Positions 2,822 through 18,211 of a stretch of DNA of 28,011 nt are shown in pieces. Position numbers and translations under genes: made by a program. Below the pieces are notes generated by a model. That model had not been told where the DNA came from. It ran no database searches and worked only from the letters and a program-made list of their open reading frames with translations. Each line of letters begins with the position of its first letter. Position 1 is the stretch's first letter. The DNA is from a virus: positions 1 through 28,011 of the IMG/VR virus record IMGVR_UViG_3300035698_014019. One strand, written 5' to 3'.

Positions 2822-4105
2822 TTAAAAAATTACTTCAGGATATTCTTTTGGTTTGACTTTCAAGTTTGGTTTGAAATAAACTTTTACATTATCTTGTCTT
2901 GCTTTGTTAAGTATTTTTTCTACCCACTCCCATTTTGGTTGCCCTTCATCCATCCCTGAACTCTTGCTCCTTCCTCCGATAATAATCCAGTCAATCATTT
3001 TTAAGGAATTGAAGGTTAACTCTTCTTGTAATGGTTCACACGAAAAGAACTTTACAGGGGCTTTGAATTTTGAAAATATGTTTTCTGCGTCTTTGATTCT
3101 GGACTGAACATCTATGGTCGTTCCAACCCAGGCTGTTTTTGGCCAGTCAATTTTGGTTAATCGCTTTGGATTCTTGGTCAAGAACAGATAATTCCATTGA
3201 GAATTTTCATCACAAACACTTAATATTTCATCAATCCATTCCTGGGGAACCCAGTCCCCAAACAAGTCTGCCATTGAACAAACAAAGGCGTTGTTTATTC
3301 CTGGCTCGTCTTTTCTTGATTCGGGAATCTTTGTACTTTTAGGGGCTGTAAGTCTTTTGGGCCTGAAGGTTGGCTCGAATTTTTCCTTATAGAATCTGTT
3401 GGCAATGTCCCTTGCATAGCAATACTTGCATCCATGTTCGCATCCGGTGACGGGATTCCACGTCCATTTTGCCCATTCTATATTTTCATTTGTTGCATTG
3501 AACTTGCTTTCCTTGTTCAGTTCATCTTCTATTTTCTGTTTCACTTCCTTTGCCAGCTTCCAGACAGCGTCAATGGACAGATCGTCATTCTTAATCCCCT
3601 CGATATCATCCGCATCCGCATATCCCAGGATGGTTCTCATCTTGTTCACGTTTGTGATCCCTGTTCCTATCAGCTTGGCGGTCTTTTCTGCTGAAGGTTT
3701 GTTATCGGTATTTAAATTTAAATACCGATTTTTCTTATAGTCCTCACTCTTATAATCTCCACCATAAGCCCCCACCCTATCCAATGCCTCAAACAATCGG
3801 AACTTGTCGCCAGCCGTCACCCTTCGGCCTTTGTTCTTGTTGCGCTTGATTGAGTATTTAAGAGCGGCATCTTCACCATCAAATTCTAACAGATTAACAG
3901 GAATGTCTTTTAGCTTGACTTCCTTGGCCGCCTCTAACCTTGTATGCCCGTCAATCAGGAACCCTTTTTCTTTCCATATCAGAATAGGTTCATTTTGGTC
4001 GTATCCGTTTTGCCGGATGTCTTCCAGCACCTCTTTGTAATCTTCATCGTAAATTCTAAAAAGGTTTTTAAAAGGGTCTTGAATTTTAATCTTTTTAATG
4101 TCCAT
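2822..4105 (-). CDS. ParB-like domain fused to DUF5131 (Gp37/Gp68) radical SAM-like protein
   Basis: Residues 1 to about 110 are a ParB/sulfiredoxin-fold domain with the LIDGHTRLEAAKE motif (DGHTR). After a helical linker, the second half begins WAKWTWNPVTGCEHGCKYCY, giving C222-x3-C226-x2-C229, the canonical 4Fe-4S ligand pattern of radical SAM enzymes. LFLTKNPKRL and IDWIIIGGRS are typical of the phage Gp37/Gp68 (DUF5131) family. Members are expected to be iron-sulfur enzymes related to spore photoproduct lyase; their substrate is not settled. The start overlaps the end of the tcmP-like gene by 11 bp. ParB domains occur in phage DNA-modification systems, so a nucleic-acid substrate is a reasonable inference, not shown. 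Confidence 0.85.
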   Translation of the reverse strand: MDIKKIKIQDPFKNLFRIYDEDYKEVLEDIRQNGYDQNEPILIWKEKGFLIDGHTRLEAAKEVKLKDIPVNLLEFDGEDAALKYSIKRNKNKGRRVTAGDKFRLFEALDRVGAYGGDYKSEDYKKNRYLNLNTDNKPSAEKTAKLIGTGITNVNKMRTILGYADADDIEGIKNDDLSIDAVWKLAKEVKQKIEDELNKESKFNATNENIEWAKWTWNPVTGCEHGCKYCYARDIANRFYKEKFEPTFRPKRLTAPKSTKIPESRKDEPGINNAFVCSMADLFGDWVPQEWIDEILSVCDENSQWNYLFLTKNPKRLTKIDWPKTAWVGTTIDVQSRIKDAENIFSKFKAPVKFFSCEPLQEELTFNSLKMIDWIIIGGRSKSSGMDEGQPKWEWVEKILNKARQDNVKVYFKPNLKVKPKEYPEVIF

Positions 4106-7389: not shown

Positions 7390-9360
7390 TTATTTATTTA
7401 GCATTCTGTTCAAGAGTTCGGACAACAAAGACGAACCCTCAACCGCCTTGCCGTCAAGAACCTTTTCCAACACCTTTCGCTTCTTGTCAATCAACTCCGC
7501 GATCTCCTCTTCTATTGTATCATGGGCAATCAAATAGTATGCATTGACTGAATCCGCTTCCTGTCCTATTCTGTGAACTCTATCCTCTGCTTGATCATGC
7601 TCACCAGGCTGCCAGCCCAATTCCACAAAGCAAGTTGAACTGGCAGCAGTCAGAGTTATTCCAATTCCAGCCGCCTTGATATTTCCCACGAACAATTTGA
7701 TCTTGTTATTTGTTTGAAACTGGTCAACCGCTTCCTGTTTGGCCTTTTGATTGTTCCTGCCATCAAGTCTTACGGAAATTCCCTTGAACTCATCCATTAA
7801 GATATCGACCGTTTTATGATGAGTACAAAAGACAACCAGCTTCTCACCTGATTCGATAAAGTTCTGAATCCAGGAAATAATGCCATTCATCTTGCCCGCA
7901 ATGGTCAATTGTTTAAGGCCTTCGATCTCTGCCAAAGTCGATGCTTGTGCAGCACTTGCGGCCTTCTCATTTCCAAACTCCTTTCTGACCCAAGAAATGA
8001 AATCGACTTCTGCCTTATCGTATTCCTTTTTGTTATCGATCTCCAAAGGAATGACGATTCTAACCTTGGCGGGGAGATCTTTCATTACTTCTGACTTCTT
8101 GCGCCTGATCATTATTGACTTTGTGACTATTTCATGAAGCTTTTCAATATTGGATGCCCCTGAAAAATCCCACCCAAATCCATTGTGTTTGGCCCCACAA
8201 TATTCATGTGCGTACTTCCAGAAAGAAGGAAATCGCTCTGGCATGATCATGTTGAGACAATTGAAGAACTCAATTGGTCTGTTGACAATCGGCGTCCCTG
8301 ACAAAGCAATGATATTTTTTGTTCTTCTTGCCAAAGATCGTACTGCCTTGGTTCTCTGGGCTTTGTTGTTCTTTGTAAAGTGAACCTCGTCCATCACCAC
8401 TGTCTTATATTTAATAGATAACAGTTCCTTCTTTCTTGCGCTGACAATATCATAATTGATAATGGTAATGTCTGTAAGTCCTGCTCCGCCATTCGACTTG
8501 CCTGATAGGATCTGAACCGATAGATCAGGACACCACATCTTGCATTCCCTTTCCCAATTTAATTTGATTGAGGCGGGGACAATAACAAGTGCTGGCAAAG
8601 AAGTTTCCTTGTTAAGTTGTATCCATGCAAGGGCCTGTGCGGTCTTGCCTAATCCCATCTCATCCCCAATCAATGCCCTGCCCTTTCTGCTCTCTACGAA
8701 CTCAACGCCTCTTGTCTGAAACGGATACAAATTCATTCCCAAACCAGGAATATTGACAATCTTCTTTTCATCCTCATACTGCATTTTGTCATACCATTCT
8801 TGTAATTCAGAAGAAATGTCAAACTTCCATTCCCTTAATGCCTCAAAACTGTCAAGAGCAAGTGGACAAGTCCAAGGCTTGTCGTCAAGTTCGGGATTCC
8901 ATTTTCTGCCTGTCAATGTCTTGACATGACCTAAAGTTTCTCTGAACCTTGAATCGCCTCTTGGGAACTGAAATTTGATCAGGATTTTATTGTCAAGTAA
9001 CCCCGTCCATTTCAAAGTCTCGATCTCTTTTTTATCTACTGCTGCTTTTTTAATGGGCAAGGATTCAATATCAAGATGCTCCAGCTGTCCGCTATATTTC
9101 TCGATCTTTCTGCGGGCAAAGTCAATCTGTTTGGATGTTAAGAGTCCTCTCTTATTATAGAAGTCTGCAATATCGGAAAGGACTCCTGCATCATGTGAAT
9201 TAAACCCTCTGCCATTCTTATAATGAGTGTGTTTCATCATCTGCTCGTCCGCTTCCTGCTCTCTGTAAAGGGCTTGAAGCGCGCCGACTACAAACTTGTC
9301 GTCTTTGAGGCGTTCTGTTATGTCCGGTCGCTCGCTTTGGGCTTTATCGGATGTTTTCAT
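7390..9360 (-). CDS. SNF2-family DNA translocase/helicase with HARP-like N-terminal region (656 aa)
   Basis: Helicase motifs appear in order. LIGDEMGLGKTAQAL is motif I, VMDEVH is the DExH box, ALSGTPIVNRPIEFFN is motif III, and GWQPGEHDQAEDRVHRIGQ is motif VI with its arginine finger. These define the SWI2/SNF2 branch of SF2. The region before the ATPase (RGDSRFRETLGHVKTLTGRKWN to the next WT/W positions) resembles the HARP domain of SMARCAL1-like annealing helicases. ATP-driven movement on DNA is expected, plausibly for fork remodelling. I prefer ATG 9360, after a GGGGGAAAA site 13 nt past the preceding stop; an upstream ATG 9405 overlaps that gene. Confidence 0.9.
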   Translation of the reverse strand: MKTSDKAQSERPDITERLKDDKFVVGALQALYREQEADEQMMKHTHYKNGRGFNSHDAGVLSDIADFYNKRGLLTSKQIDFARRKIEKYSGQLEHLDIESLPIKKAAVDKKEIETLKWTGLLDNKILIKFQFPRGDSRFRETLGHVKTLTGRKWNPELDDKPWTCPLALDSFEALREWKFDISSELQEWYDKMQYEDEKKIVNIPGLGMNLYPFQTRGVEFVESRKGRALIGDEMGLGKTAQALAWIQLNKETSLPALVIVPASIKLNWERECKMWCPDLSVQILSGKSNGGAGLTDITIINYDIVSARKKELLSIKYKTVVMDEVHFTKNNKAQRTKAVRSLARRTKNIIALSGTPIVNRPIEFFNCLNMIMPERFPSFWKYAHEYCGAKHNGFGWDFSGASNIEKLHEIVTKSIMIRRKKSEVMKDLPAKVRIVIPLEIDNKKEYDKAEVDFISWVRKEFGNEKAASAAQASTLAEIEGLKQLTIAGKMNGIISWIQNFIESGEKLVVFCTHHKTVDILMDEFKGISVRLDGRNNQKAKQEAVDQFQTNNKIKLFVGNIKAAGIGITLTAASSTCFVELGWQPGEHDQAEDRVHRIGQEADSVNAYYLIAHDTIEEEIAELIDKKRKVLEKVLDGKAVEGSSLLSELLNRMLNK

Positions 9361-9374
9361 TTTTCCCCCTTTTT

Positions 9375-9773
9375 TTATTCCTTTCTTTGAACTCTTACTA
9401 TCCATGTTATTGCCTCTTCCAATGTAACATATCTTTTGATCACATAGAATTTATGTTGTTCCCCAACAAAAACCTTATTATAACAACTGTCTAAAAAATA
9501 CCAAGCGTCATCAATTTTAGCTTGAGCTTGGCAATGTTTATATTTTTTATCCACTATCTTTCCGAGAGCGATACGAATTTCATATCCATTTCTTCTTGCG
9601 GTCATTGCCTGGAAAACAGCCCTTGGTACACAACTTGCTGTCCATTTGACAGTAGTCGCATCATACCAAAGACTTTTCTGGTGAGCACATCCAGAGGAAA
9701 AATAAAAAATAAAAATCAGCACTAATATTCCACAACAAACAAGAATAACATTAAGGCATTTTTTTCTTATCAT
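9375..9773 (-). CDS. Lipoprotein with transglutaminase-like catalytic triad (132 aa)
   Basis: The N-terminus is a lipoprotein signal: basic start, hydrophobic core LVCCGILVLIFIFYF, then lipobox SSGC with Cys29. The mature part has TASC48VPRAVFQAMTARRNGYEIRIALGK, H80 in KHCQAQAK and D95 in AWYFLDS. This Cys-His-Asp order and spacing match transglutaminase-like (papain-fold) proteins, where Cys heads a helix and His and Asp lie on adjacent strands. An envelope-anchored enzyme made early could act in superinfection exclusion or host envelope remodelling, but that is inference. It is followed closely by the SNF2 gene. Confidence 0.65.
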   Translation of the reverse strand: MIRKKCLNVILVCCGILVLIFIFYFSSGCAHQKSLWYDATTVKWTASCVPRAVFQAMTARRNGYEIRIALGKIVDKKYKHCQAQAKIDDAWYFLDSCYNKVFVGEQHKFYVIKRYVTLEEAITWIVRVQRKE

Positions 9774-9785
9774 TTTTATTCCCCT

Positions 9786-10160
9786 TTACTCCGTCAGCTC
9801 TTTCAAGCCGGATTTTATTTCTTTGAATGTTTCCTGAATTGTTTGAAAAGGCCAATTCTTCTGACGCCTGAGATATTTCATTAAACTTTCACGACTGATT
9901 CCCCTGCCTGATTCTAATCCAATTTCCATAAGTTCTGTTGGGGAATCAAATACCAATTTGACCACGGCCTTTGCTTCGATCGAAAACGAAAAAAGCATTT
10001 CCTTGAACATAAAATGCCTTTCCGGAGTATTCATCACTTCTAAATTATCCGCTACAATGATTTTTCCGTCCTGCTCATAATAGTTCAACCCTTTTCTTTC
10101 CACGTCAATTTCAAATGCTTTTTCCTTATTGCTATACTTTCTCCTCTTGTACTTTCCCAT
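9786..10160 (-). CDS. Hypothetical protein (124 aa)
   Basis: Start ATG 10160 follows AAAGGGG. The N-terminus is basic (MGKYKRRKYSNKEKA), the middle forms strands (GKIIVADNLEVMN), and the C-terminal third is helical (TELMEIGLESGRGISRESLM, then LRRQKNWPFQTIQETFKEI), perhaps a helix-turn-helix. No family recognised. The start lies within the end of the preceding gene, so the two are coupled. Confidence 0.6.
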   Translation of the reverse strand: MGKYKRRKYSNKEKAFEIDVERKGLNYYEQDGKIIVADNLEVMNTPERHFMFKEMLFSFSIEAKAVVKLVFDSPTELMEIGLESGRGISRESLMKYLRRQKNWPFQTIQETFKEIKSGLKELTE

Positions 10161-10305
10161 GTTTTTCCCCTTTCTCATTATTTTCTTTCTCAAAGATTTT
10201 TCCGCAAGGTGTTTTTCTTATTAATAAAGGATCTCTTTCCTTTAAATTAGTATCGCCCCATCTGTTTTGGTGTGTTTTCAAATTCCTGTTTTGCAATCTT
10301 TCCAT
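10132..10305 (-). CDS. Small basic hypothetical protein (57 aa)
   Basis: ATG 10305 follows GAAAGGGG. The product is highly charged (HQNRWGDTNLKERDPLLIRK) with one Cys. It overlaps its neighbours by 28 bp at each end in different frames, a packing seen elsewhere in this operon. Function unknown. Confidence 0.5.
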   Translation of the reverse strand: MERLQNRNLKTHQNRWGDTNLKERDPLLIRKTPCGKIFEKENNEKGEKHGKVQEEKV

Positions 10306-10514
10306 TTTTCCCCTTTCTGTAAAGACAAACATTTTGTAGATTTTAATACTCCCTTATTTGTTCTTTTAAGAAACTCTTCATCCAAACCTTTGTCGCAAGA
10401 TGGACAGCCGCCTTCATTGTCAAAGTATTCACAAATTTCATGGGGCGGTATATGTTGCCAACAATACCTTCCGTCTGGAACTTCCATCGGAAGTAAAACA
10501 ATTTTCTTGGGCAT
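10278..10514 (-). CDS. Cys-containing hypothetical protein (78 aa)
   Basis: ATG 10514 follows GAAAGGAGAG. The sequence includes YCWQHIPPHEICEYF and GGCPSCDKG, so Cys18, Cys28, Cys37 and Cys40 could hold a zinc. The C-terminal third is Lys-rich. No family recognised. Confidence 0.6.
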   Translation of the reverse strand: MPKKIVLLPMEVPDGRYCWQHIPPHEICEYFDNEGGCPSCDKGLDEEFLKRTNKGVLKSTKCLSLQKGEKWKDCKTGI

Positions 10515-10571
10515 AATTTCTCTCCTTTCTCATTTAAAAGTTAATAAAAAAATGACTTCAACGCTTACTCA

Positions 10572-10598
10572 GAAGCCTAAATCCTCAAGTTAGGCTTC
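10572..10598 (-). terminator. Intergenic hairpin A (repeated element, possible attenuator or terminator)
   Basis: Arms GAAGCCTAA and TTAGGCTTC form a perfect 9-bp stem with a 9-nt loop just after the stop of the DUF3150-like gene. On the minus strand a T7 run comes about 20 nt later, then a TTAAC...GAAAGGAG leader. The same arrangement, with a related stem, recurs at 15423-15451. The distance from stem to T-run is too long for a textbook terminator, so RNA processing or attenuation is also possible. Confidence 0.4.
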
Positions 10599-10608
10599 CT
10601 GATAAATG

Positions 10609-11556
10609 TTAAATGTCCAATGCTCTCTCCAGCTTCACAACTGGCAAGGATTCAAAAGACTCAACCACATCTGACATTATCTTTCCGATTTCCTGTCGAT
10701 ATTCTTTGTCGTCTCTCAAATCCCCTGCATAAATTCCATCAAGAATCTGCTCGATATCATCAATGATATCAATGGAAGGCTGATCCTCATACGCCGTAAT
10801 CAGTTCCTTAAATCTTTGCAAAAAGACCTTCGGTTTTTCAACAGTGCTATCTTTGAACTTTGAATTTGGATCAACCAGCTTGTCTTTCAAATGAGCAAGA
10901 AGTTCAATCATTTCCTGGCGGGCTTTCGCTATTCCATCTTCAGTTGCCCGTTTCATCAGCTCGACAAACTTTTGATTTTCCCTTTCAACGATATCTTTGC
11001 TGACAACCCCAATTCCGTCTTCTCCAAACGGAACTGTTATCTTTTGCCACCCATAATCAAACCGGAACTTGTCAAGCAAGACCTCGACTGGAGGATAATT
11101 CTCCGGATTATATAATCCGGGATTATCGCTTGCAAATTTCTTCTCAAGTTCAGGATACTTCAAGGCAAACTCCGTCTTGCTCTCCTCAATCTGTTCCTTT
11201 GCCAATCTGCAAGCTTCCTCCATTTCCGCAAAGTCCTTTTCAAAAATGTAATAAACCCCTTCATGAAACCAAGGGGCACAAAGCCTGCGGGCTGTTGACT
11301 GAACCTGTGACATTGGCTTTGTAACCGCCGCCACTTCGTTACTGTCAATGAGCTTATGGACAGCGGATATCGCTTTGGCATCGTCTTGAAATTTTTCGTT
11401 CAAAACTTCCTTTGCAATCTTCTTTCGATTGCCCCAACTGCCTGTCTTGATCCAGAGCAGCCATCCCGCTTCCATTGCGGTCTTGACCATCTTCTGAGCC
11501 CTGTCTTCAGGAATAGTATAATAGTTACTCTTCTTAATTTTTCTTTTTCTTTTCAT
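10609..11556 (-). CDS. DUF3150-like phage protein (315 aa)
   Basis: A soluble, mainly helical protein: EVAAVTKPMSQVQSTARRL and LCAPWFHEGVYYIFEKDFAE near residues 75-110, a long coiled segment, then FRFDYGWQKITVPFG and a C-terminal helical half. The order resembles DUF3150 proteins, which in phages and plasmids often neighbour MoxR/AAA+ ATPase genes. A Ycf46-like ATPase is encoded about 1.4 kb upstream. ATG 11556 follows GAAAGGAG. The biochemical function is unknown. I judge the family by pattern only. Confidence 0.55.
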   Translation of the reverse strand: MKRKRKIKKSNYYTIPEDRAQKMVKTAMEAGWLLWIKTGSWGNRKKIAKEVLNEKFQDDAKAISAVHKLIDSNEVAAVTKPMSQVQSTARRLCAPWFHEGVYYIFEKDFAEMEEACRLAKEQIEESKTEFALKYPELEKKFASDNPGLYNPENYPPVEVLLDKFRFDYGWQKITVPFGEDGIGVVSKDIVERENQKFVELMKRATEDGIAKARQEMIELLAHLKDKLVDPNSKFKDSTVEKPKVFLQRFKELITAYEDQPSIDIIDDIEQILDGIYAGDLRDDKEYRQEIGKIMSDVVESFESLPVVKLERALDI

Positions 11557-11695
11557 TTTCTTTCTCCTTTCTTTTGATTACAAAGTTTATTTCCGCCGTT
11601 GCTTTCTTATGACATTTAGCGCAAATGCCATAAGAGACAGGTTCTTTTCTTCCTTCCTTTATAACTTTGTCGCACCACGCACAAATAACTTTCAT
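11534..11695 (-). CDS. Zinc-ribbon microprotein (53 aa)
   Basis: ATG 11695 follows GAAAGGGGG and overlaps the previous stop (ATGA). The core is VICAWCDKVIKEGRKEPVSY, then GICAKCHKKAT: two CxxC knuckles with a conserved S-x-GIC pattern seen in many small bacterial zinc proteins. A strongly basic tail follows. Nucleic-acid binding is likely but inferred. Confidence 0.7.
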   Translation of the reverse strand: MKVICAWCDKVIKEGRKEPVSYGICAKCHKKATAEINFVIKRKEKENEKKKKN

Positions 11696-12114
11696 ATATC
11701 CCCCTTTCTTGGTTGAACCCATCGCCTGATAATTGTTCGGGCATAATACTTACCACGCGTTTTGAAAAAAGAGTTCTGTGAGCTAAAAGAAAAATCTGGT
11801 CTCCAACCAGCAGGGCAGACTTTTAAGGCAAGGTCAATAAGTTCTGTGGGATCAGTTCTGTTATAAGCCCAACTCAAGCTCTCGGGTATTTCAAATTTCA
11901 AGGTTTTATTTTCATGTTTTTTGCCTATTTTGTCCAAGGCAATGACCTCTATTTCCTGACATTTAGTATATGCCAGCCTTGATAATGCCTGAGTAAATTG
12001 TTCAGAGGTTAAAACCACCTTTACGAACGTAACGCTTGCATCATAATCATGCAGTTCGATTGTAACTCCCGTATCGCTTGTCAATATTGTTATCCTTCCA
12101 TCTTTAAGTATCAT
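11692..12114 (-). CDS. Hypothetical protein (140 aa)
   Basis: Start ATG 12114 is preceded by AGGGAGG; an upstream ATG 12174 lacks a site. The first half is beta-rich (GRITILTSDTGVTIELHDYD, VTFVKVVLTSEQFTQALSRL), the second contains SWAYNRTDPTELIDLALKV and a basic C-terminus. No family recognised. The stretch 12115-12224 before the next gene shows nothing convincing. Confidence 0.6.
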   Translation of the reverse strand: MILKDGRITILTSDTGVTIELHDYDASVTFVKVVLTSEQFTQALSRLAYTKCQEIEVIALDKIGKKHENKTLKFEIPESLSWAYNRTDPTELIDLALKVCPAGWRPDFSFSSQNSFFKTRGKYYARTIIRRWVQPRKGDI

Positions 12115-12224
12115 TTCCTTACCTCCCTTTCTTGTTGAAAATTTTATGGGCGAGTTGCCTGCCAGGCCCCACATCCTGATCCACCAATCTCGTGTCCTAC
12201 ATGCGTCTACTGACAGGTCTTACC

Positions 12225-12479
12225 TTAAACTTCGTCTGCCCATTTTATCTCCTCATCATCCATTTCGCAAAGCTCCCAGAAGTCCCGATATTCCTGATCG
12301 GCAGCGGCTTCGTTTACTCGCTTCTGCACCAGGAAAGTCAAGGCACGTTCTAACTGACTTGGCAAGCCTTCAAATAGACAGGTTTCATGCACTGCCTCAT
12401 CGGCATCCAGAAACCTGTCCAGTGCCAAATCATAAGCATCTCCCACAAGTTCCTGAACCTGAAAATATCTTAGTCCCAT
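12225..12479 (-). CDS. Acidic hypothetical protein (84 aa)
   Basis: ATG 12479 has GGAGGA 8 nt upstream, lying in the end of the preceding paralogue gene. The product is acidic and helical (YDLALDRFLDADEAVHETCL, LCEMDDEEIKWADEV). Function unknown. Confidence 0.6.
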   Translation of the reverse strand: MGLRYFQVQELVGDAYDLALDRFLDADEAVHETCLFEGLPSQLERALTFLVQKRVNEAAADQEYRDFWELCEMDDEEIKWADEV

Positions 12480-12481
12480 AA

Positions 12482-12805
12482 TCAAATTCCTCCTATTCCA
12501 CTTTTTTTATTATTAGGCCTACATATAATTTGACACATTTTATTTTGAGACTGTTGATCAAATGGCGGAAGTTCCTGATCTCCCCAATTATATAGGCTAT
12601 CCATTGCTGAGTCAAAACTTTTAATATCGGTAACATTACTAAAAGCCTTAACAACAACACTCAATAAATCTTTCTCTCCTTCAGAAACCGGCAATGCTTC
12701 AAGTTTTTTAGCTATTATTTCAGCTAATTTAGATGAAGAAATTTTTTGTCTCTCTGCCTTTTTCCACCCCTCTTTAATATCAATTTCATATTTCCAGTTT
12801 GCCAT
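12482..12805 (-). CDS. Duplicated 107-aa protein, copy 2
   Basis: This copy is nearly identical to the product of 15842-16165: same length, over 85% identical residues by eye, with identical C-terminal half NWGDQELPPFDQQSQ through KSGIGG. The N-terminus NWKYEIDIKEGWKKAERQ is shared. Two Cys (CQIIC) near the end may bind metal. ATG 12805 follows GAGGAGGG. No family recognised. The copies flank the AAA+ ATPase gene and the genes between it and DUF1257. Confidence 0.75.
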   Translation of the reverse strand: MANWKYEIDIKEGWKKAERQKISSSKLAEIIAKKLEALPVSEGEKDLLSVVVKAFSNVTDIKSFDSAMDSLYNWGDQELPPFDQQSQNKMCQIICRPNNKKSGIGGI

Positions 12806-12908
12806 TTTTAACCCTCCTCTTTCTTTGTTATAGATTAATATTTAAGAAAACTCAATTCTTTTCCATTCCGCCTACAACCCTCCTAAGTTATAGACGGTAG
12901 CAAAAGAA

Positions 12909-14438
12909 TTAAATATCAACTGAACGGCTTGACTTCTTGCCGTTCATCTTAATTGATGTCGCGGGTATAGTCCTGCCCTTCGCCCATTTTCTCAACTGAC
13001 CAATTGAAGTATCCATCGTCTTGCTAACAGGTATAATCCATTCCTTGGTCTTGTCAATGGTTGTTTGCATGATGTTGGCCATCCTGCAAACCGACTTGAG
13101 TTCCGCTCCCGACCAGCCTGTCGTCCCGTCACCTGTCAAAGGACCCTTGACCTTGTAATGATTTTTATAAAAGTCAAGAATTGCTTTTCGCTCCTTGTCA
13201 TTCGGCAAGTCGATGAATATCGGGGCACAATCCCAACGTTCTGCCCTGAGATATTCGGGTGGAATCTTTGTAACATCGTTGCAGGTGGCAATAACATAAA
13301 TTCCGTCGCCATGATCTGACATCCACTTGAGCCATTGTGCCATAGCCCTTTCTGTTGTTCCGCCGTCATTGACGCCACGGCCTCCGATACCAGCCAATCC
13401 TTTTTCAAGTTCATCAATAAACACGATGATGCCAGGGGCCATCGCCTCAATTGCGTCAATCGCCCGTCGGACTTTTTCCTCTGTTTCACCGACAAGACTT
13501 CCCATGAATTGAGCAAACTCCAAAGTTACCATGAATTTCTTTGTCGCTTGGGCAAGGGCTTTTGCAAATGCGCTCTTGCCAGTTCCGGCAGGGCCTAACA
13601 AGATCATCCCCCTGGCCTTTGGATGATCGACCATGCTGAGTGCTAATTTTTTGAGGTTATCCATTCCCATCAAACTCTCAAATGTTTCTTGATATTCGAT
13701 GTATTTTACTCCTGCAACCTCTGCCAGAAATGATGCCCTCCGCTTTGTAACTGTGACAGGATCAAGCTGTCCGTCATTGAGAATCAGACTATAAAAATAG
13801 CTGTTCTCAACCTCCTGAGGAGTCATGCCCTTTGCCGCATTGACCAATTCCTGTCTCTTTTTCTTGTCGGGGACTTTGAATTTGTCCTTGACTTGTTTCT
13901 TGGCGACCCCGATTGCTTCGTCCAATATCTTTCCGATCTCTTCGCTTCCCGGCAAAGATATTTTCAAAGAAATGAAATCCCTGATCAGTTCCTTCGGCAT
14001 GGCATTGGAAATCGCCGTTTGGGCGATAATGATTATTATTTTTCTTCTGTCACTCGTCCTGAACAGAATCAGACGATCCTGAATCCATTGAACAAGGTCG
14101 TAACTGGCTTGGCCGCTTTGTTCGTCCTTCAAAAACCAGTGAAAGTTTTTCAAAATAACAACTGCGTTTTGCGGGCCTTCGCTAAGTTCCTTGAGTGGGT
14201 TCATCGGGTCGGCTTGATGTTCTCCTTCAAGCTCTTCCTCTCTTTCCTTTGTGATTGCCGGAGGGGCTGTAACGCCCCAGATTGCGATCTTTTCAAAAGG
14301 TTTCTGCTTCTGACTATTTTCATAGCCGAGCAGCTCGTCCTTGATCTGTTCACAGCCTTTTGGGATATCTTCACATTGTACAAAAAAGTGAGAATATCCC
14401 GCCCTCAGATAGTTTATGAGCCCTGTTTCCTGTGCCAT
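12909..14438 (-). CDS. Ycf46-like AAA+ ATPase (509 aa)
   Basis: The N-terminal half is a degenerate P-loop-like domain with VVILKNFHWFLKDEQ, IIIIIAQTAISNAMPKEL and a segment ending MTPQEVENSYFYSLI, the layout of Ycf46-type ATPases. The C-terminal half is a classic AAA+ module: Walker A G282PAGTGKS, Walker B IIVFIDE near 337-343, sensor 1 ATCND near 385-388 and Arg finger candidates in EYLRAERWD. The family is found in algae, cyanobacteria and many phages; its exact role is unknown. DUF1257 (Ycf35-like) and DUF2997 genes lie just upstream in the same operon. The start has AAAGGGGAG. Confidence 0.85.
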   Translation of the reverse strand: MAQETGLINYLRAGYSHFFVQCEDIPKGCEQIKDELLGYENSQKQKPFEKIAIWGVTAPPAITKEREEELEGEHQADPMNPLKELSEGPQNAVVILKNFHWFLKDEQSGQASYDLVQWIQDRLILFRTSDRRKIIIIIAQTAISNAMPKELIRDFISLKISLPGSEEIGKILDEAIGVAKKQVKDKFKVPDKKKRQELVNAAKGMTPQEVENSYFYSLILNDGQLDPVTVTKRRASFLAEVAGVKYIEYQETFESLMGMDNLKKLALSMVDHPKARGMILLGPAGTGKSAFAKALAQATKKFMVTLEFAQFMGSLVGETEEKVRRAIDAIEAMAPGIIVFIDELEKGLAGIGGRGVNDGGTTERAMAQWLKWMSDHGDGIYVIATCNDVTKIPPEYLRAERWDCAPIFIDLPNDKERKAILDFYKNHYKVKGPLTGDGTTGWSGAELKSVCRMANIMQTTIDKTKEWIIPVSKTMDTSIGQLRKWAKGRTIPATSIKMNGKKSSRSVDI

Positions 14439-14466
14439 AGTTCTGCTCCCCTTTCTTTGTTATAGA

Positions 14467-14901
14467 TTAAATGTCAAGGTAACGTTCGGTTGAAAATGTT
14501 ACTGGCTGGCTAACTTTTCTTTTAGTTTTTTGTTTTCTTGGTCTCCTTTTTCGCCAAGCAAATTCTTTGGACGGTGAAGCAGAAATTGATATATTCTGTT
14601 CTCTTTCGGCATTTCGTATTCGCTCGGCATTTCGTATTCGCTCGGCTAAATTTTCTCTCCTCATACGATCGGTCGCATCAGTATTCCTGATCAGAAAGTC
14701 GTTGTCCGTTACAAGATAGCCAAGATCATGTGCCCTTGCAATTGCTAAGTCTAAAAGACTTCCTTTATCCCGTTCCCTTGCTACTTTGATAAAGCAACAT
14801 AGTTTTTCTGGTCTTTTGATTCGCTCCAGACGAGTCGCAAGCTGCACCCAAGTCATATACGACCAGCGATATCGCTCATGCTCCATTAAATTTTCCTCCA
14901 T
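14467..14901 (-). CDS. Hypothetical protein with tandem ERIRNA repeat (144 aa)
   Basis: Starts at ATG 14901 (AGGGAGAG upstream) and at ATG 14886 (GGAGG 8 nt upstream) are both possible; the second has the stronger site. The front half is compact (RWSYMTWVQLATRLERIKRP). The middle holds two exact copies of ERIRNA from an 18-bp duplication. The tail is very basic (WRKRRPRKQKTKRKVSQP). No family is seen. Nucleic-acid binding is plausible from the charge. Confidence 0.6.
   Translation of the reverse strand: MEENLMEHERYRWSYMTWVQLATRLERIKRPEKLCCFIKVARERDKGSLLDLAIARAHDLGYLVTDNDFLIRNTDATDRMRRENLAERIRNAERIRNAEREQNISISASPSKEFAWRKRRPRKQKTKRKVSQPVTFSTERYLDI
14606..14646 (-). repeat. 18-bp tandem repeat, 2.3 copies, in frame
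   Basis: TCGGCATTTCGTATTCGC occurs at 14606-14623 and 14624-14641, followed by TCGGC. The unit is a multiple of three, so it adds six residues per copy without a frameshift. It is likely a slippage product. Confidence 0.85.
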
Positions 14902-14923
14902 AATCACTCTCCCTTCTTAAAAA

Positions 14924-15136
14924 TCAATAAATAGTTACTTTTGTTATATAAGCCTTGCTAAATATATATTCCTCCGACACTCCTGCTATCTCACAATTAA
15001 GATCAGATAAAACCTCGCTTCCCAAATCACAAAGCACAGCGTTTAAGTTTGTGTTTCTTTTTACTCCTTCATCATTAACAAATTCAATAATGATCTTCTT
15101 TGGATCAACTTGTCCTTCCCTTTTTTTATCTGCCAT
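14924..15136 (-). CDS. Small hypothetical protein (70 aa)
   Basis: ATG 15136 follows GAAAGGAGAG. A basic N-terminus MADKKREGQVDPKK precedes beta strands (IIIEFVNDEG) and a helical region with Cys (LNAVLCDLGSEVLSDLNCEI). No family. It is part of the operon between the ATPase and DUF1257 genes. Confidence 0.6.
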   Translation of the reverse strand: MADKKREGQVDPKKIIIEFVNDEGVKRNTNLNAVLCDLGSEVLSDLNCEIAGVSEEYIFSKAYITKVTIY

Positions 15137-15153
15137 AGTCCTGCTCTCCTTTC

Positions 15154-15372
15154 TTATCTATACAAAGTAACTATATCTCCGAACTCCTTTTCAAATATCT
15201 GAATAAGATTCTCGTAATCGCCACTTGCCATCCTTGTGGAGATGTCGTCAAAGTTCTTGTCGAGTTGTTTGCAAAGGGCTTTGGTCATGCCTAACAAATA
15301 GAAGGCGTTGCCGTTAGGGCCTGTCAGGTCGATCTCAATTCCCGCTTCCATTTTTTCTTTGCTTATTATCAT
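15154..15372 (-). CDS. Small hypothetical protein (72 aa), IDLTGPNGNAFYLLG type
   Basis: ATG 15372 follows AAGAAAGGAG. The motif IEIDLTGPNGNAFYLLGMTK is a recurring pattern in small phage and plasmid proteins of unknown function (a strand, then a Gly-Asn-Ala turn and a helix). The rest is helical and ends at an operon gap of 17 nt. I cannot assign a role. Confidence 0.65.
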   Translation of the reverse strand: MIISKEKMEAGIEIDLTGPNGNAFYLLGMTKALCKQLDKNFDDISTRMASGDYENLIQIFEKEFGDIVTLYR

Positions 15373-15422
15373 TTTAAATCTCCTTTCTTAAATGGTTAAT
15401 AAAAAAAATAAAATCCTTATCA

Positions 15423-15451
15423 GGAAGCTCAATCCCTCAATTTGAACTTCC
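15423..15451 (-). terminator. Intergenic hairpin B (same element as 10572-10598)
   Basis: Arms GGAAGCTCAA and TTGAACTTCC pair over 10 positions with one mismatch, just after the stop of the DUF1257 gene. On the minus strand a T8 run and TTAACCATTTAAGAAAGGAG follow, as after hairpin A. It is a possible attenuator, or an RNA stabiliser between operon segments. Confidence 0.4.
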
Positions 15452-15460
15452 CAATAAAGA

Positions 15461-15838
15461 TTATATTTCAACAACAATACGTTTCCAGCCTATCCCGACA
15501 GGGCTCTTTCGTTCATAGAACCTGTACCTATTTTTCTTCGCCGTAACCTTGGCAGTTGCAATGCCGTATGACTGTTTCAGCCTGGCCCTCACATTCGCAA
15601 GCCCGCCTGACATATACTCGTCCAATACCAATTGCCATTCGCCTTCCTCGTCCTTGATAACCCCGATCTCATAATCGGCACCAGGAATCTTGATGGCATG
15701 AAGGCAATCGGTTGACCCGTAATACTGTTTGAACTGGGTTTGTCCCTGACAGAATTTCCATTTGTTGTCAAGGCACATCTGCTTGATTATGTTGAAATCG
15801 TATTTTTCCTCGATCTCAATTTTGCTGACATGGCTCAT
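15461..15838 (-). CDS. DUF1257 (Ycf35-like) protein (125 aa)
   Basis: It begins MSHVSKIEIEEKY, the usual MSH-S-I start of DUF1257. The centre has IPGADYEIGVIKDEEGEWQL, the conserved YDIGF-type strand pair. The C-terminus is a strand-rich basic end (YRFYERKSPVGIGWKRIVVE) after LKQSYGIATAK. DUF1257 proteins (Ycf35 in algal plastids) are short alpha/beta proteins of unknown function, often found with Ycf46-like ATPases and DUF2997. All three occur here within 4 kb. The stop of the upstream paralogue gene lies 4 nt ahead. Confidence 0.72.
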   Translation of the reverse strand: MSHVSKIEIEEKYDFNIIKQMCLDNKWKFCQGQTQFKQYYGSTDCLHAIKIPGADYEIGVIKDEEGEWQLVLDEYMSGGLANVRARLKQSYGIATAKVTAKKNRYRFYERKSPVGIGWKRIVVEI

Positions 15839-15841
15839 TAT

Positions 15842-16165
15842 TTAGTTTCCTCCTATTCCACTTTTTTTATTATTAGGTCTGCATATAATCTGACACATTT
15901 TATTTTGAGACTGTTGATCAAATGGAGGGAGTTCCTGATCTCCCCAATTATATAAGCTATCCATTGCTGAGTCAAAACTTTCAATGTCGGTAACCTCATT
16001 AAAAGCCTTAACAACAACACTCAATAAATCTTTCTCTTCTTCAGAAACCGGTAATGCTTCAAGTTTTTTAGCAAGTATGGTTGCTAATTCAAATGAAGAG
16101 ATTTTTTGTCTCTCTGCCTTTTTCCACCCCTCTTTAATATCAATTTTATATTTCCAGTTTGACAT
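15842..16165 (-). CDS. Duplicated 107-aa protein, copy 1
   Basis: Same length as copy 2 (12482-12805) when started at ATG 16165, which has GGAGGG 7 nt upstream; a tandem ATG sits at 16168. Nucleotide identity in the 3' half is about 95% by eye, including the stop context, with changes mostly at scattered positions. The shared core KAERQKISS, LPVSE-EKDLLSVVVKAF and MDSLYNWGDQ suggests a small helical protein. Located between DUF2997 and DUF1257 genes. Confidence 0.75.
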   Translation of the reverse strand: MSNWKYKIDIKEGWKKAERQKISSFELATILAKKLEALPVSEEEKDLLSVVVKAFNEVTDIESFDSAMDSLYNWGDQELPPFDQQSQNKMCQIICRPNNKKSGIGGN

Positions 16166-16182
16166 CATCTTACCCTCCTTTC

Positions 16183-16401
16183 TTATCCACAAAGTTTGGC
16201 GCCATCGACTCCCATCCTCGCTTCTCTTTTCAAAGAAGCGTGATTGGTCAGATACCATTCTGTCTTCTTTTTAGTATCCGTCACCTTGCCCAATGCCTCT
16301 TCCATGAATGCGCTGGCCTGCTGGCATACCGGGCCTTTAAAGCCATCCCCTGAAACTCTGGCCTCTCCGTCAGGGCCAACATCTACAAATAGCTTTGGCA
16401 T
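16183..16401 (-). CDS. DUF2997-like protein (72 aa)
   Basis: The sequence PKLFVDVGPDGEARVSGDGF with KGPVCQQASAFMEEALGKVT matches the short DUF2997 pattern: two beta strands with GPDG, then a GxxC helix and EALG. Residues 48-72 form an extra tail containing a Cys. ATG 16401 has AAGAAAGGAG. It is the first clear gene after the regulatory region, heading the DUF2997-DUF1257-Ycf46 operon. Confidence 0.72.
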   Translation of the reverse strand: MPKLFVDVGPDGEARVSGDGFKGPVCQQASAFMEEALGKVTDTKKKTEWYLTNHASLKREARMGVDGAKLCG

Positions 16402-16592
16402 GATATTTCTCCTTTCTTAAATGGTTGATAAAATTTTACTTCTCCATTTCTGACTATCCTTCTTACTCACGATCAAAAATGCAAAAACGATAGTCAGAAT
16501 AAAAAAGTAAAACAACTATTATTATACGGAACCTATCGACTAAAAATAGTCTGGAGAGCAGGAGCAGATTAATAAGGATCAGGAATAAAATT
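16402..16592 (-). promoter_or_regulatory. Intergenic region with possible promoter and inverted repeats
   Basis: TATAAT on the minus strand at 16526-16521 could be a -10 for the DUF2997 operon; no good -35 is seen. Two inverted repeats share a GACTA core: TGACTATC/GATAGTCA (16451-16458, 16489-16496) and GACTA-AAAA-TAGTC (16539-16552). They lie on either side of the -10, as operator half sites would. A weak 32-codon hydrophobic frame also opens here but has no ribosome binding site. Confidence 0.35.
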
Positions 16593-16760
16593 TTATTTTT
16601 TTGGCATATATAAAAAAACGGAAATCATATTGAAAAAACTTTTGAAAAACTTACTAAACTTCTTGCCGTTAAAAATAAAATCTAAAACAATATCAATAAT
16701 AGACTGCATGCCTTCCTGCCTGTCACTCGGCGGCATTGAAAATAACCACTCATGAACCAT
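16593..16760 (-). CDS. Doubtful small ORF (55 aa)
   Basis: An ATG frame without a clear Shine-Dalgarno. The product starts MVHEWLFSMPPSDRQEGM and ends with a hydrophobic, Phe- and Lys-rich stretch (FNGKKFSKFFKSFFNMIS). It may be a real microprotein at the head of the early region, or chance. Confidence 0.3.
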   Translation of the reverse strand: MVHEWLFSMPPSDRQEGMQSIIDIVLDFIFNGKKFSKFFKSFFNMISVFLYMPKK

Positions 16761-17076
16761 AATAGTTTGTTGTTTAACCTGCAACAATCAAGGGCTCAAA
16801 TATTCTGCCTTGAGCAAGCATTCGATTCGTTTTCGGTCAATCGAGAAAATCCATCAGGTTAATATGGCTGATTTTGATTCCTGTCTCGGGAGTAAAATCA
16901 TAAAACTCGGATTTCAAATTTCCGTCTAAATCCTAAAACGTAGAGCAGATTTAAAAAAGAGTCGTAAATTCTTTTTATCAGGGACTCCAAATCCATTGTT
17001 GAAAAAATCCTTTAGAAAAATTTCAAATAAAAATGTACCGCAATTTTTTTATCCTAATTTCGCTATCAAATTTTTT

Positions 17077-17124
17077 ACTTGGTTACCATGGAAGGCTTAT
17101 CCTTTCGGCCAAGTCCCTTTCGGG
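17077..17124 (-). ncRNA. Possible structured leader RNA
   Basis: On the minus strand CCC-GAAA-GGG forms a tetraloop hairpin (17115-17124). It is followed directly by a 6-bp stem ACTTGG/CCAAGT (17109-17114 with 17077-17082) enclosing AAGG/CCTT. It lies about 90 nt downstream of the promoter at 17215-17243, in the untranslated leader. I could not match it to a known riboswitch or ribozyme core. Confidence 0.3.
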
Positions 17125-17190
17125 CTATTATATATCCTTGATTAAGACGGATATTTTGATATCATTTTTCACCCCCTCAAAATCAATATA

Positions 17191-17215
17191 TTTAACCTTG
17201 TTTAACATGGTTAAA
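17191..17215. promoter_or_regulatory. Operator-like palindrome
   Basis: Arms TTTAACC and GGTTAAA are perfectly complementary over 7 bp, with an 11-bp centre that contains a further TTTAAC. It overlaps the last base of the -10 box and covers the expected start site, an ideal place for a repressor. No repressor gene is in the window. Confidence 0.5.
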
Positions 17216-17243
17216 TTATAATATTTAAAATCAAGAAAATCAA
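17215..17243 (-). promoter_or_regulatory. Leftward sigma70-type promoter
   Basis: TTGATT (17243-17238) and a perfect TATAAT (17220-17215) are separated by 17 bp on the minus strand. It points toward the early region; the next confident gene is DUF2997 at 16401, giving a leader of about 800 nt unless the small ORFs are real. Confidence 0.6.
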
Positions 17244-17363
17244 GAAAAAAAAGATTTATTTTTATTTATTTTAATAACCCATTGATTATAGGGCGTTTTT
17301 CAGACATGTTTTTTAGTTAAAAATAATTAAGATTTTAAATAAGAGGTGTTTTTCGGGTTTTCT

Positions 17364-17435
17364 TAATGATTTTAATAGGTTAAGTCTGATTTTTCTGATT
17401 TTTTTTGAAAAAAGACTAATGATTTTAATAGGTTA
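17364..17435. repeat. Direct repeat, 19 bp, two copies
   Basis: TAATGATTTTAATAGGTTA occurs at 17364-17382 and 17417-17435, 53 bp apart (five helical turns). They lie upstream of the leftward promoter and could be activator or repressor sites, or origin iterons. Confidence 0.6.
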
Positions 17436-17464
17436 CAAATCAAAAAATTGAAAAAACTGAAAAA

Positions 17465-17509
17465 TATAGCCCCTGTCAGGATTACAGAATTGTCCTGGCA
17501 GGGGCTATA
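17465..17509 (-). terminator. Terminator of the late operon
   Basis: Arms 17465-17481 and 17493-17509 pair over 17 positions with one mismatch in minus-strand RNA (GC-rich core AGCCCCTG/CAGGGGCT), with an 11-nt loop. The minus strand continues TTTTTCAGTTTTTTC. It lies about 100 bp after the stop of the holin-like gene; the stretch 17516-17611 contains nothing else. Confidence 0.8.
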
Positions 17510-17611
17510 TATAAATAGGCCTGCAAACGCTGTCTGAAAACATCATTTGCTACTCTTGATATTGTAATGCTTAGAGTTACTTATTATATCCTAAATAATT
17601 TTGAACCTTGT

Positions 17612-18211
17612 TTACTCATCTTTCCATTTGTTTGAGCGATTCATGATGCGGGCAAGTCGGCGGTCGCCGAACCACCAGGTAATGCAGCTGACAGCCAGAT
17701 ATATGATCGTCTCAGTCACCAGCATATATAAAGCATACGCCTGGGCCGCCGTTATATCCTGCCCAAACTGATCCATAATTGCCTTAGCCTGTATTGTTAA
17801 TATTGTAGCCAGAATTGTCAGGTACAAAGTCAGACCTGGACGCATCAATGCCTTAATGATATCAACTAACCCGAAGAACATTGAAAGCAAAGCTCCTATC
17901 CAGGAAGTCCAGGGCGACCTATAAAGCTTTGCCATATAGGACTTATCAAACAAGTCAATTGCGCCTTGCTTCATAGATTCTTGATACGCCTTTATCTCTG
18001 CCAGCTCAATTGCCCCTCTGGTCTCCTCCTTTTGCACTTCAATCTTCATTTCCGATTCTTTAATCATATTAGCAGTTTCCAATTTAAGCATCTCTTCCTC
18101 ATGGGCATTATCTGATTTTTTCTGCTTGAACTGAAAAATTGCCGTAATTGTATTGCCAACAAGTCCCGTTATTGCTCCAAGTATCGGCGCGCTTAATAAT
18201 GTAGCTAACAT
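17612..18211 (-). CDS. Holin-like membrane protein (199 aa)
   Basis: An N-terminal hydrophobic segment (LLSAPILGAITGLVGNTITA) is followed by a charged helical region (about 30-95) and three more hydrophobic segments (WIGALLSMFFGLVDII, LTLYLTILATILTI, YMLVTETIIYLAVSCITWWF). The end is basic (RRLARIMNRSNKWKDE). It is the last gene of the late operon, 4 bp after the DUF5675 gene, which suits a holin or a holin-associated role. The long central coiled region is unusual for a small holin, so another membrane role is possible. Confidence 0.5.
   Translation of the reverse strand: MLATLLSAPILGAITGLVGNTITAIFQFKQKKSDNAHEEEMLKLETANMIKESEMKIEVQKEETRGAIELAEIKAYQESMKQGAIDLFDKSYMAKLYRSPWTSWIGALLSMFFGLVDIIKALMRPGLTLYLTILATILTIQAKAIMDQFGQDITAAQAYALYMLVTETIIYLAVSCITWWFGDRRLARIMNRSNKWKDE

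Follow-up and report, generated by a model that had tools for sequence, protein, structure and literature searches.

Results

A Ycf46-like ATPase and its neighbours in a viral genome

The stretch of DNA analysed here (the window) is the entire IMG/VR viral record IMGVR_UViG_3300035698_014019, of 28,011 bases. Entirely on its minus strand lies a set of genes encoding a Ycf46-like AAA+ ATPase (12909..14438, 509 aa), a DUF1257 (Ycf35-like) protein (15461..15838, 125 aa), a DUF2997 protein (16183..16401, 72 aa) and a DUF3150-like protein (10609..11556, 315 aa). In the direction of transcription, the DUF2997 gene is followed by the first copy of a duplicated gene, the DUF1257 gene, two small open reading frames (ORFs), a 146-aa ORF (14467..14907), the ATPase gene and the second copy of the duplicated gene; ORFs of 86, 160 and 62 aa then precede the DUF3150-like gene. 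The first-pass annotation, made from the sequence alone, had reported the ATPase, DUF1257 and DUF2997 genes together with a duplicated 107-residue protein and a DUF3150-like gene, and this arrangement was confirmed. The second copy of the duplicate (12482..12805, 107 aa; phrog_6318, 5.2e-8) is identical to the final 107 residues of the first (15842..16258, a 138-aa ORF) at 96/107 amino acids and 297/324 nucleotides.

The DUF2997 assignment stands, as the protein passes the Pfam profile PF11211 with 34.7 bits (1.6e-8) where 24.1 are required. The DUF1257 assignment holds by a different route from the profile search proposed for it: neither Pfam nor NCBIfam gave a DUF1257 (PF06868) match for the window protein, so that by Pfam alone the refuting condition set in the first-pass annotation would apply. 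In pairwise phmmer comparisons, however, it groups with PF06868-positive phage proteins, and in a 41-sequence alignment it shares 36-43% identity with seven Nitrospirota-type sequences and one viral sequence (loci L069-L072, L074, L091, L092 and L014). One of these relatives, from L070, is 38% identical to the window protein and narrowly passes PF06868 (22.7 bits against 22.2). A score of 118 bits was obtained on a profile that contains the window protein itself and is not independent. As Pfam alone finds no match, the protein is named DUF1257 by homology only. Searches of the Protein Data Bank (PDB) by sequence returned nothing usable for the DUF1257 protein and chance-level matches only for DUF2997. 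The DUF3150-like protein scores 21.9 bits on PF11348, under the curated cut-off of 24.9, and belongs to one family with a plasmid protein from L052 that passes at 37.7 bits; for this reason it is called DUF3150-like. In L052, a Candidatus Manganitrophus plasmid, the DUF3150 gene (L052:7968-8854) is split across two overlapping frames.

The ATPase combines a degenerate and a complete AAA domain

The ATPase passes the Pfam AAA profile (PF00004) with 84.1 bits against a cut-off of 21.2 (1.6e-23). Its N-terminal half aligns to its own C-terminal AAA domain with 94.8% probability (E 5e-8), forming a degenerate AAA domain that lacks a Walker A motif. The C-terminal domain retains the Walker A lysine, the Walker B DE, the sensor asparagine and two arginines in 76/76 aligned relatives. 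By these signatures, the protein is a tandem AAA+ ATPase with an inactive-looking N-terminal and a catalytically complete C-terminal domain. Among proteins of solved structure, the closest relatives of the active domain belong to the CDC48/p97 and proteasomal AAA class. The protein nevertheless differs from that class, both in its degenerate N-terminal half and in scoring far below the family cut-offs; membership of the CDC48 subfamily (TIGR01243) was rejected at 65 bits against 802.65. The family name Ycf46 comes from the first-pass annotation and is kept here in the form Ycf46-like; full-length relatives are present in cyanobacterial genomes.

DUF1257 and DUF2997 genes accompany the ATPase gene in diverse replicons

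Relatives of the ATPase were collected from viral contigs, phage records, plasmids and genomes, and family profiles were then built. The ATPase served as the query for genomes, DUF1257 having been judged too divergent for a pattern query. The plasmid sample comprised 17 fetched regions (40 records listed of 1019 matching), and the phage sample 5 (40 listed of 110 matching). A set of 83 loci, the window among them, has a Ycf46-like AAA protein scoring 250 bits or more; L074 is a duplicate of L052, and each was entered in the counts. DUF1257 was found in 65 of the 83 loci, DUF2997 in 61, both in 60, DUF3150 in 31 and all four families in 27. The DUF1257 and DUF2997 genes lie on the same strand as the ATPase gene in 124 of 126 cases, at a median distance of 460 nt and a maximum of 1938 nt. 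The four-gene set was also found on the Candidatus Manganitrophus plasmid and was recognised by eye in the viral contigs L001 and L002. In these two contigs the DUF1257-like and DUF2997-like genes were missed by the profiles and left out of the counts, and none of the four small proteins matches DUF1257 or DUF2997 in Pfam.

Because all 83 loci had been found through the ATPase, a reverse search was run from DUF1257. PF06868 was detected in 19 of 246 sampled planctomycete genomes, where DUF2997 adjoins it in 19/19 and the ATPase gene in 18/19, and in 3 of 398 Bacillota genomes, with DUF2997 beside it in 3/3. The co-occurrence noted in the window thus extends well beyond it, as seen from either anchor. 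Membership of the set is narrower than first thought. Neither the duplicated 107-residue protein nor the remaining small ORFs of the window turned up in the recurrent core; the DUF3150-like gene is a recurrent fourth member, found in 31/83 loci.

Two Bacillota genomes (L140 and L141) contain a single 222-aa ORF in which PF06868 matches at 46.6 bits and PF11211 at 43.1 bits. This fusion suggests that the DUF1257 and DUF2997 proteins can work as one. The two genomes, which belong to two species, share an identical 3249-nt stretch carrying the fused gene, so the fusions were counted as one event; such identity is the mark of a recent transfer, as far as can be read from the sequences. In high-GC planctomycetes, DUF1257 also seemed to be fused to the AAA gene in long frames, but these cases were discarded as products of overlapping open frames.

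The ATPase and unrelated neighbours frequently end in a common C-terminal tail

Three proteins of the window have similar C-termini, of the form R-x-hydrophobic-D/E-hydrophobic: SRSVDI in the ATPase, ERALDI in the DUF3150-like protein and TERYLDI in the 146-aa protein. A fixed pattern was used for the counts, consisting of an arginine, any residue, a hydrophobic residue, one of D, E, Q, T, S or K, a hydrophobic residue and up to two more residues. Rows were dropped when the protein was truncated, identical in its last 12 residues to another or shorter than 60 aa. Among the unique complete tails of the first set, the pattern was matched by 18/61 ATPases of module loci and 11/27 DUF3150-like proteins, as compared with 17/1349 other ORFs.

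A second set of 22 loci had played no part in fixing the pattern; 14 of them were fetched before it was fixed and 8 (L187-L194) afterwards. In the loci fetched earlier the gene ends were first inspected once the pattern had been fixed, except in L118 and L119, which overlap L104 and L096 of the first set. Here the tail was present in 9/17 ATPases, 6/157 other ORFs of the same strand and 0/79 ORFs of the opposite strand; it was absent from DUF1257 (0/16), DUF2997 (0/15) and DUF3150 (0/2). When a terminal W was allowed, the strict form occurred in 8/157 other ORFs, all of them in L187-L190, whose ATPases bear the tail; six of the eight belong to one family and two to another. L187-L190 are genomes of about 2 Mb from the cyanobacterial phylum, with the AAA gene, DUF2997, in most cases a radical-SAM-like protein, and membrane-type proteins bearing the tail.

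The tail is carried by proteins of unrelated families, namely DUF3150-like proteins, the N15 family, HhH proteins and membrane proteins. The ATPases of planctomycete chromosomes commonly end in RKIEI, RKLEL or RRKIEF. One cyanobacterial group has the ending YQRMEF, which falls outside the pattern, and only 5/24 unique tails from the cyanobacterial phylum fit. In two loci, L004 and L055, the ATPase bears the tail where DUF1257 and DUF2997 were not detected. On this comparison of C-termini, a tail shared by the ATPase and otherwise unrelated neighbours, and rare elsewhere, appears to be a real feature of these loci, and its distribution suggests a docking signal.

The fourth gene and the carriers vary

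The nature of the fourth gene differs between loci. In phages, Nitrospirota and Planctomycetes it encodes DUF3150, whereas Rhizobium/Aeromonas-type phages have a family of ~210 aa (N15), actinobacterial plasmids have HhH proteins, and an IncC plasmid has a protein of 394 aa. In 15 loci the module also has near it a member of a small family, N4 (RASHVEP...ADLSPVGGP), which has no Pfam name (e.g., L069:9983-10264 and L058:9293-9652). Among the carriers are phages, plasmids (conjugative as well as non-mobilizable), recombinase-bearing elements and ordinary chromosomal contexts; the module is not phage-specific. On the IncC resistance plasmid (L058) and on a conjugative Vibrio plasmid (L067), it lies near conjugation or partition genes. 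The Pirellulales assembly JALHQZ contains several DUF1257-DUF2997-AAA-DUF3150 copies (L083, L085, L087, L090, L094 and L109), one or more of which have a serine recombinase next to them, and this multi-copy module is possibly an undescribed small integrative element.

Discussion

Relation to known systems

In cyanobacteria, the gene order DUF2997-ycf35 (DUF1257)-fed7 is given in PMC4284462, and we found it in two cyanobacterial genomes; PMC8875361 describes SigD-dependent expression of the three genes in Synechocystis. This cluster resembles the module in the adjacency of the DUF1257 and DUF2997 families but differs in adjoining a ferredoxin rather than an AAA gene and in lacking DUF3150. Ycf46 of Synechocystis and of red-algal plastids shares the AAA+ family name with the window protein. 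Its Synechocystis gene (slr0374) instead lies, according to PMC7496141, within the stress-regulated operon slr0373-slr0376; the same paper links Ycf46 only broadly to CO2 use and reports that its inactivation lowers the activity of the carbonic anhydrase EcaB. IetAS and SgiAT of SGI1 are, like the module, systems of mobile elements with an AAA+ ATPase, but in them the ATPase is paired with a subtilisin-like protease. Membership of IetAS was rejected since no protease appeared among the neighbour families and window neighbours that were scanned, which do not include every neighbour.

Our literature search found no paper treating the DUF1257-DUF2997-AAA set as a unit and none mentioning DUF3150. 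What is new here is the short C-terminal tail common to the ATPase and unrelated neighbours; the tail code itself is possibly new. Short C-terminal peptides likewise mediate AAA+ docking or engagement in the HbYX tails of proteasomal ATPases and in the MuA tail read by ClpX. The residues differ from those described here, however, and the tail of the module sits on both the ATPase and its partner.

A candidate remodelling machine

The first-pass annotation had proposed a single AAA+ machine with small partners. This proposal is supported by the adjacency seen from two independent anchors, by the DUF1257-DUF2997 fusion and by the catalytically complete ATPase. Reading these features from sequence, we think it rather probable that the Ycf46-like ATPase forms the core of one ATP-driven protein-remodelling machine, in which DUF1257-DUF2997 would be the adaptor and the partner would be held by its tail. 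The ATPase would form a hexameric ring, probably a double one with an inactive first tier, and DUF1257 and DUF2997 would serve as one heterodimeric adaptor. The tail would be a handle that docks partners on the ring or is engaged by it; the tailed partners in this phage would be the DUF3150-like and 146-aa proteins, and ATP hydrolysis would assemble or dismantle a partner complex. Because the ATPases of L004 and L055 are tailed where DUF1257 and DUF2997 were not detected, the reader of the tail is more plausibly the ATPase itself than the adaptor.

Several observations weigh against such a machine. By the fixed pattern, 43/61 ATPases of the first set lack the tail, and the Manganitrophaceae and Pirellulales sets have it on neither the ATPase nor DUF3150. 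The pairing of tails between ATPase and partner is weak, with counts of 10/3/4/11 (p 0.021; six loci dropped as split or cut) and, for all ORFs, of 16/15/19/48 (p 0.040), and these nominal p-values overstate the significance since the sequences are related. A proteome-wide tail test over two phages gave a mixed outcome. In Catdawg only two annotated genes fit the pattern, that of the ATPase and gene 27; in L338C (positions 1-50000 and 48500-98000 of 109558) four annotated, unrelated genes (gp009, gp012, gp015 and gp051) match but the ATPase itself does not. Neither DUF1257 nor DUF2997 lies within the flanks of 17/83 AAA loci. Conversely, the one planctomycete exception (L145) has DUF1257-DUF2997 with no AAA gene in 12 kb, and the canonical cyanobacterial pair adjoining ferredoxin has none in the 10-12 kb fetched from the two genomes. 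Predicted structures gave no help: the DUF1257 model (pLDDT 78.8) reached a best Foldseek E of 0.32 and a best VIA-align Z of 6.2 over 69 residues, below the trusted level, and fold searches with the DUF3150-like model (pLDDT 85.2) returned generic helical bundles only.

Three other roles were considered. The idea of a remodeller acting in replication, already raised in the first-pass annotation, would make the module a replication or segregation accessory: the ATPase would load the element's helicase, primase or initiator, or remodel it, and the DUF proteins would serve as loading factors. Many phages and some plasmids do have replication genes next to the module. It directly precedes the genes for DnaB and DNA polymerase in Rhizobium phages, and a Pseudomonas phage has it just before DnaB; dnaN, dnaX and holA adjoin it on a Nostoc plasmid, ParA/ParB-type genes lie less than 6 kb away on Planktothrix and Vibrio plasmids, and a Toprim primase family occurs in the window and at several loci. 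This evidence is circumstantial, as early phage genes cluster anyway, and the planctomycete and cyanobacterial chromosomal copies have other neighbours; we regard such a role as unlikely. By analogy with MoxR-type ATPases, the ATPase might instead activate a redox enzyme, which would make the module a machine for protein or cofactor maturation with a link to Fe-S or radical-SAM chemistry. A radical-SAM family (Fer4_12) does lie near the ATPase in 11 clustered loci and, as judged by sequence, in three of the four loci L187-L190, and both the ferredoxin next to the cyanobacterial pair and the reduced EcaB activity on Ycf46 inactivation (PMC7496141) would fit. Most phage loci, including the core of the window, lack an enzyme of this kind beside the module, however, and the radical-SAM-like DUF5131 protein of the window belongs to a different family and is encoded 6.5 kb beyond the DUF3150-like gene; maturation also seems improbable.

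A defence, counter-defence or addiction system of mobile elements, comparable to IetAS and SgiAT with their AAA+ ATPase and protease, would account for the frequency of the module on phages, plasmids and recombinase-bearing elements and for its several copies in one Pirellulales assembly, and the AAA region does resemble IetA (1.3e-14). That match is confined to the AAA domain, though; the conserved set includes no protease or nuclease, the DUF1257, DUF2997, 107-aa and 146-aa proteins match nothing in PADLOC, and the module is also found on cyanobacterial chromosomes. We consider defence very unlikely.

Returning to the tail-guided remodelling machine, a wider version can be put forward tentatively. 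The module may belong to a widespread AAA+ system, as yet undescribed, whose C-terminal peptide code, common to the ATPase and its partners, plugs interchangeable, unrelated effectors into a conserved core of ATPase and DUF1257-DUF2997. Mobile elements and chromosomes would each reuse the core with a partner of their own, and plastid Ycf46 and Ycf35 would represent its housekeeping version. In cyanobacteria and red-algal plastids, Ycf46, Ycf35 (DUF1257) and DUF2997 have until now had the status of conserved orphans. With the module present in phages, on an IncC conjugative plasmid and on chromosomes, and with the fusion and the tail, these three unknowns become one testable complex, for which the phage and plasmid copies offer tractable models and the tail a direct handle for finding substrates.

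Other features of the window

Between the DUF1257 and ATPase genes lie a 72-aa ORF (15154..15372), which matches phrog_1933 (8.1e-8; function not known), and a 70-aa ORF (14924..15136); family scans gave no usable match for the latter or for the 146-aa protein. Downstream of the second duplicate copy, the 86-aa ORF (12225..12485) had no match in family scans. It is followed by the 160-aa ORF (11692..12174), recorded as an ORF only, and, just upstream of the DUF3150-like gene, by the 62-aa ORF (11534..11722), which has two CxxC pairs and no significant match. All five are on the minus strand. An Rfam scan of positions 9000-18000 found no RNA family. Elsewhere in the window, 7390-9405 encodes a SNF2-type helicase close to the ZorD/DpdE helicases, and the DUF5131 radical-SAM-like protein is encoded at 2822-4105.

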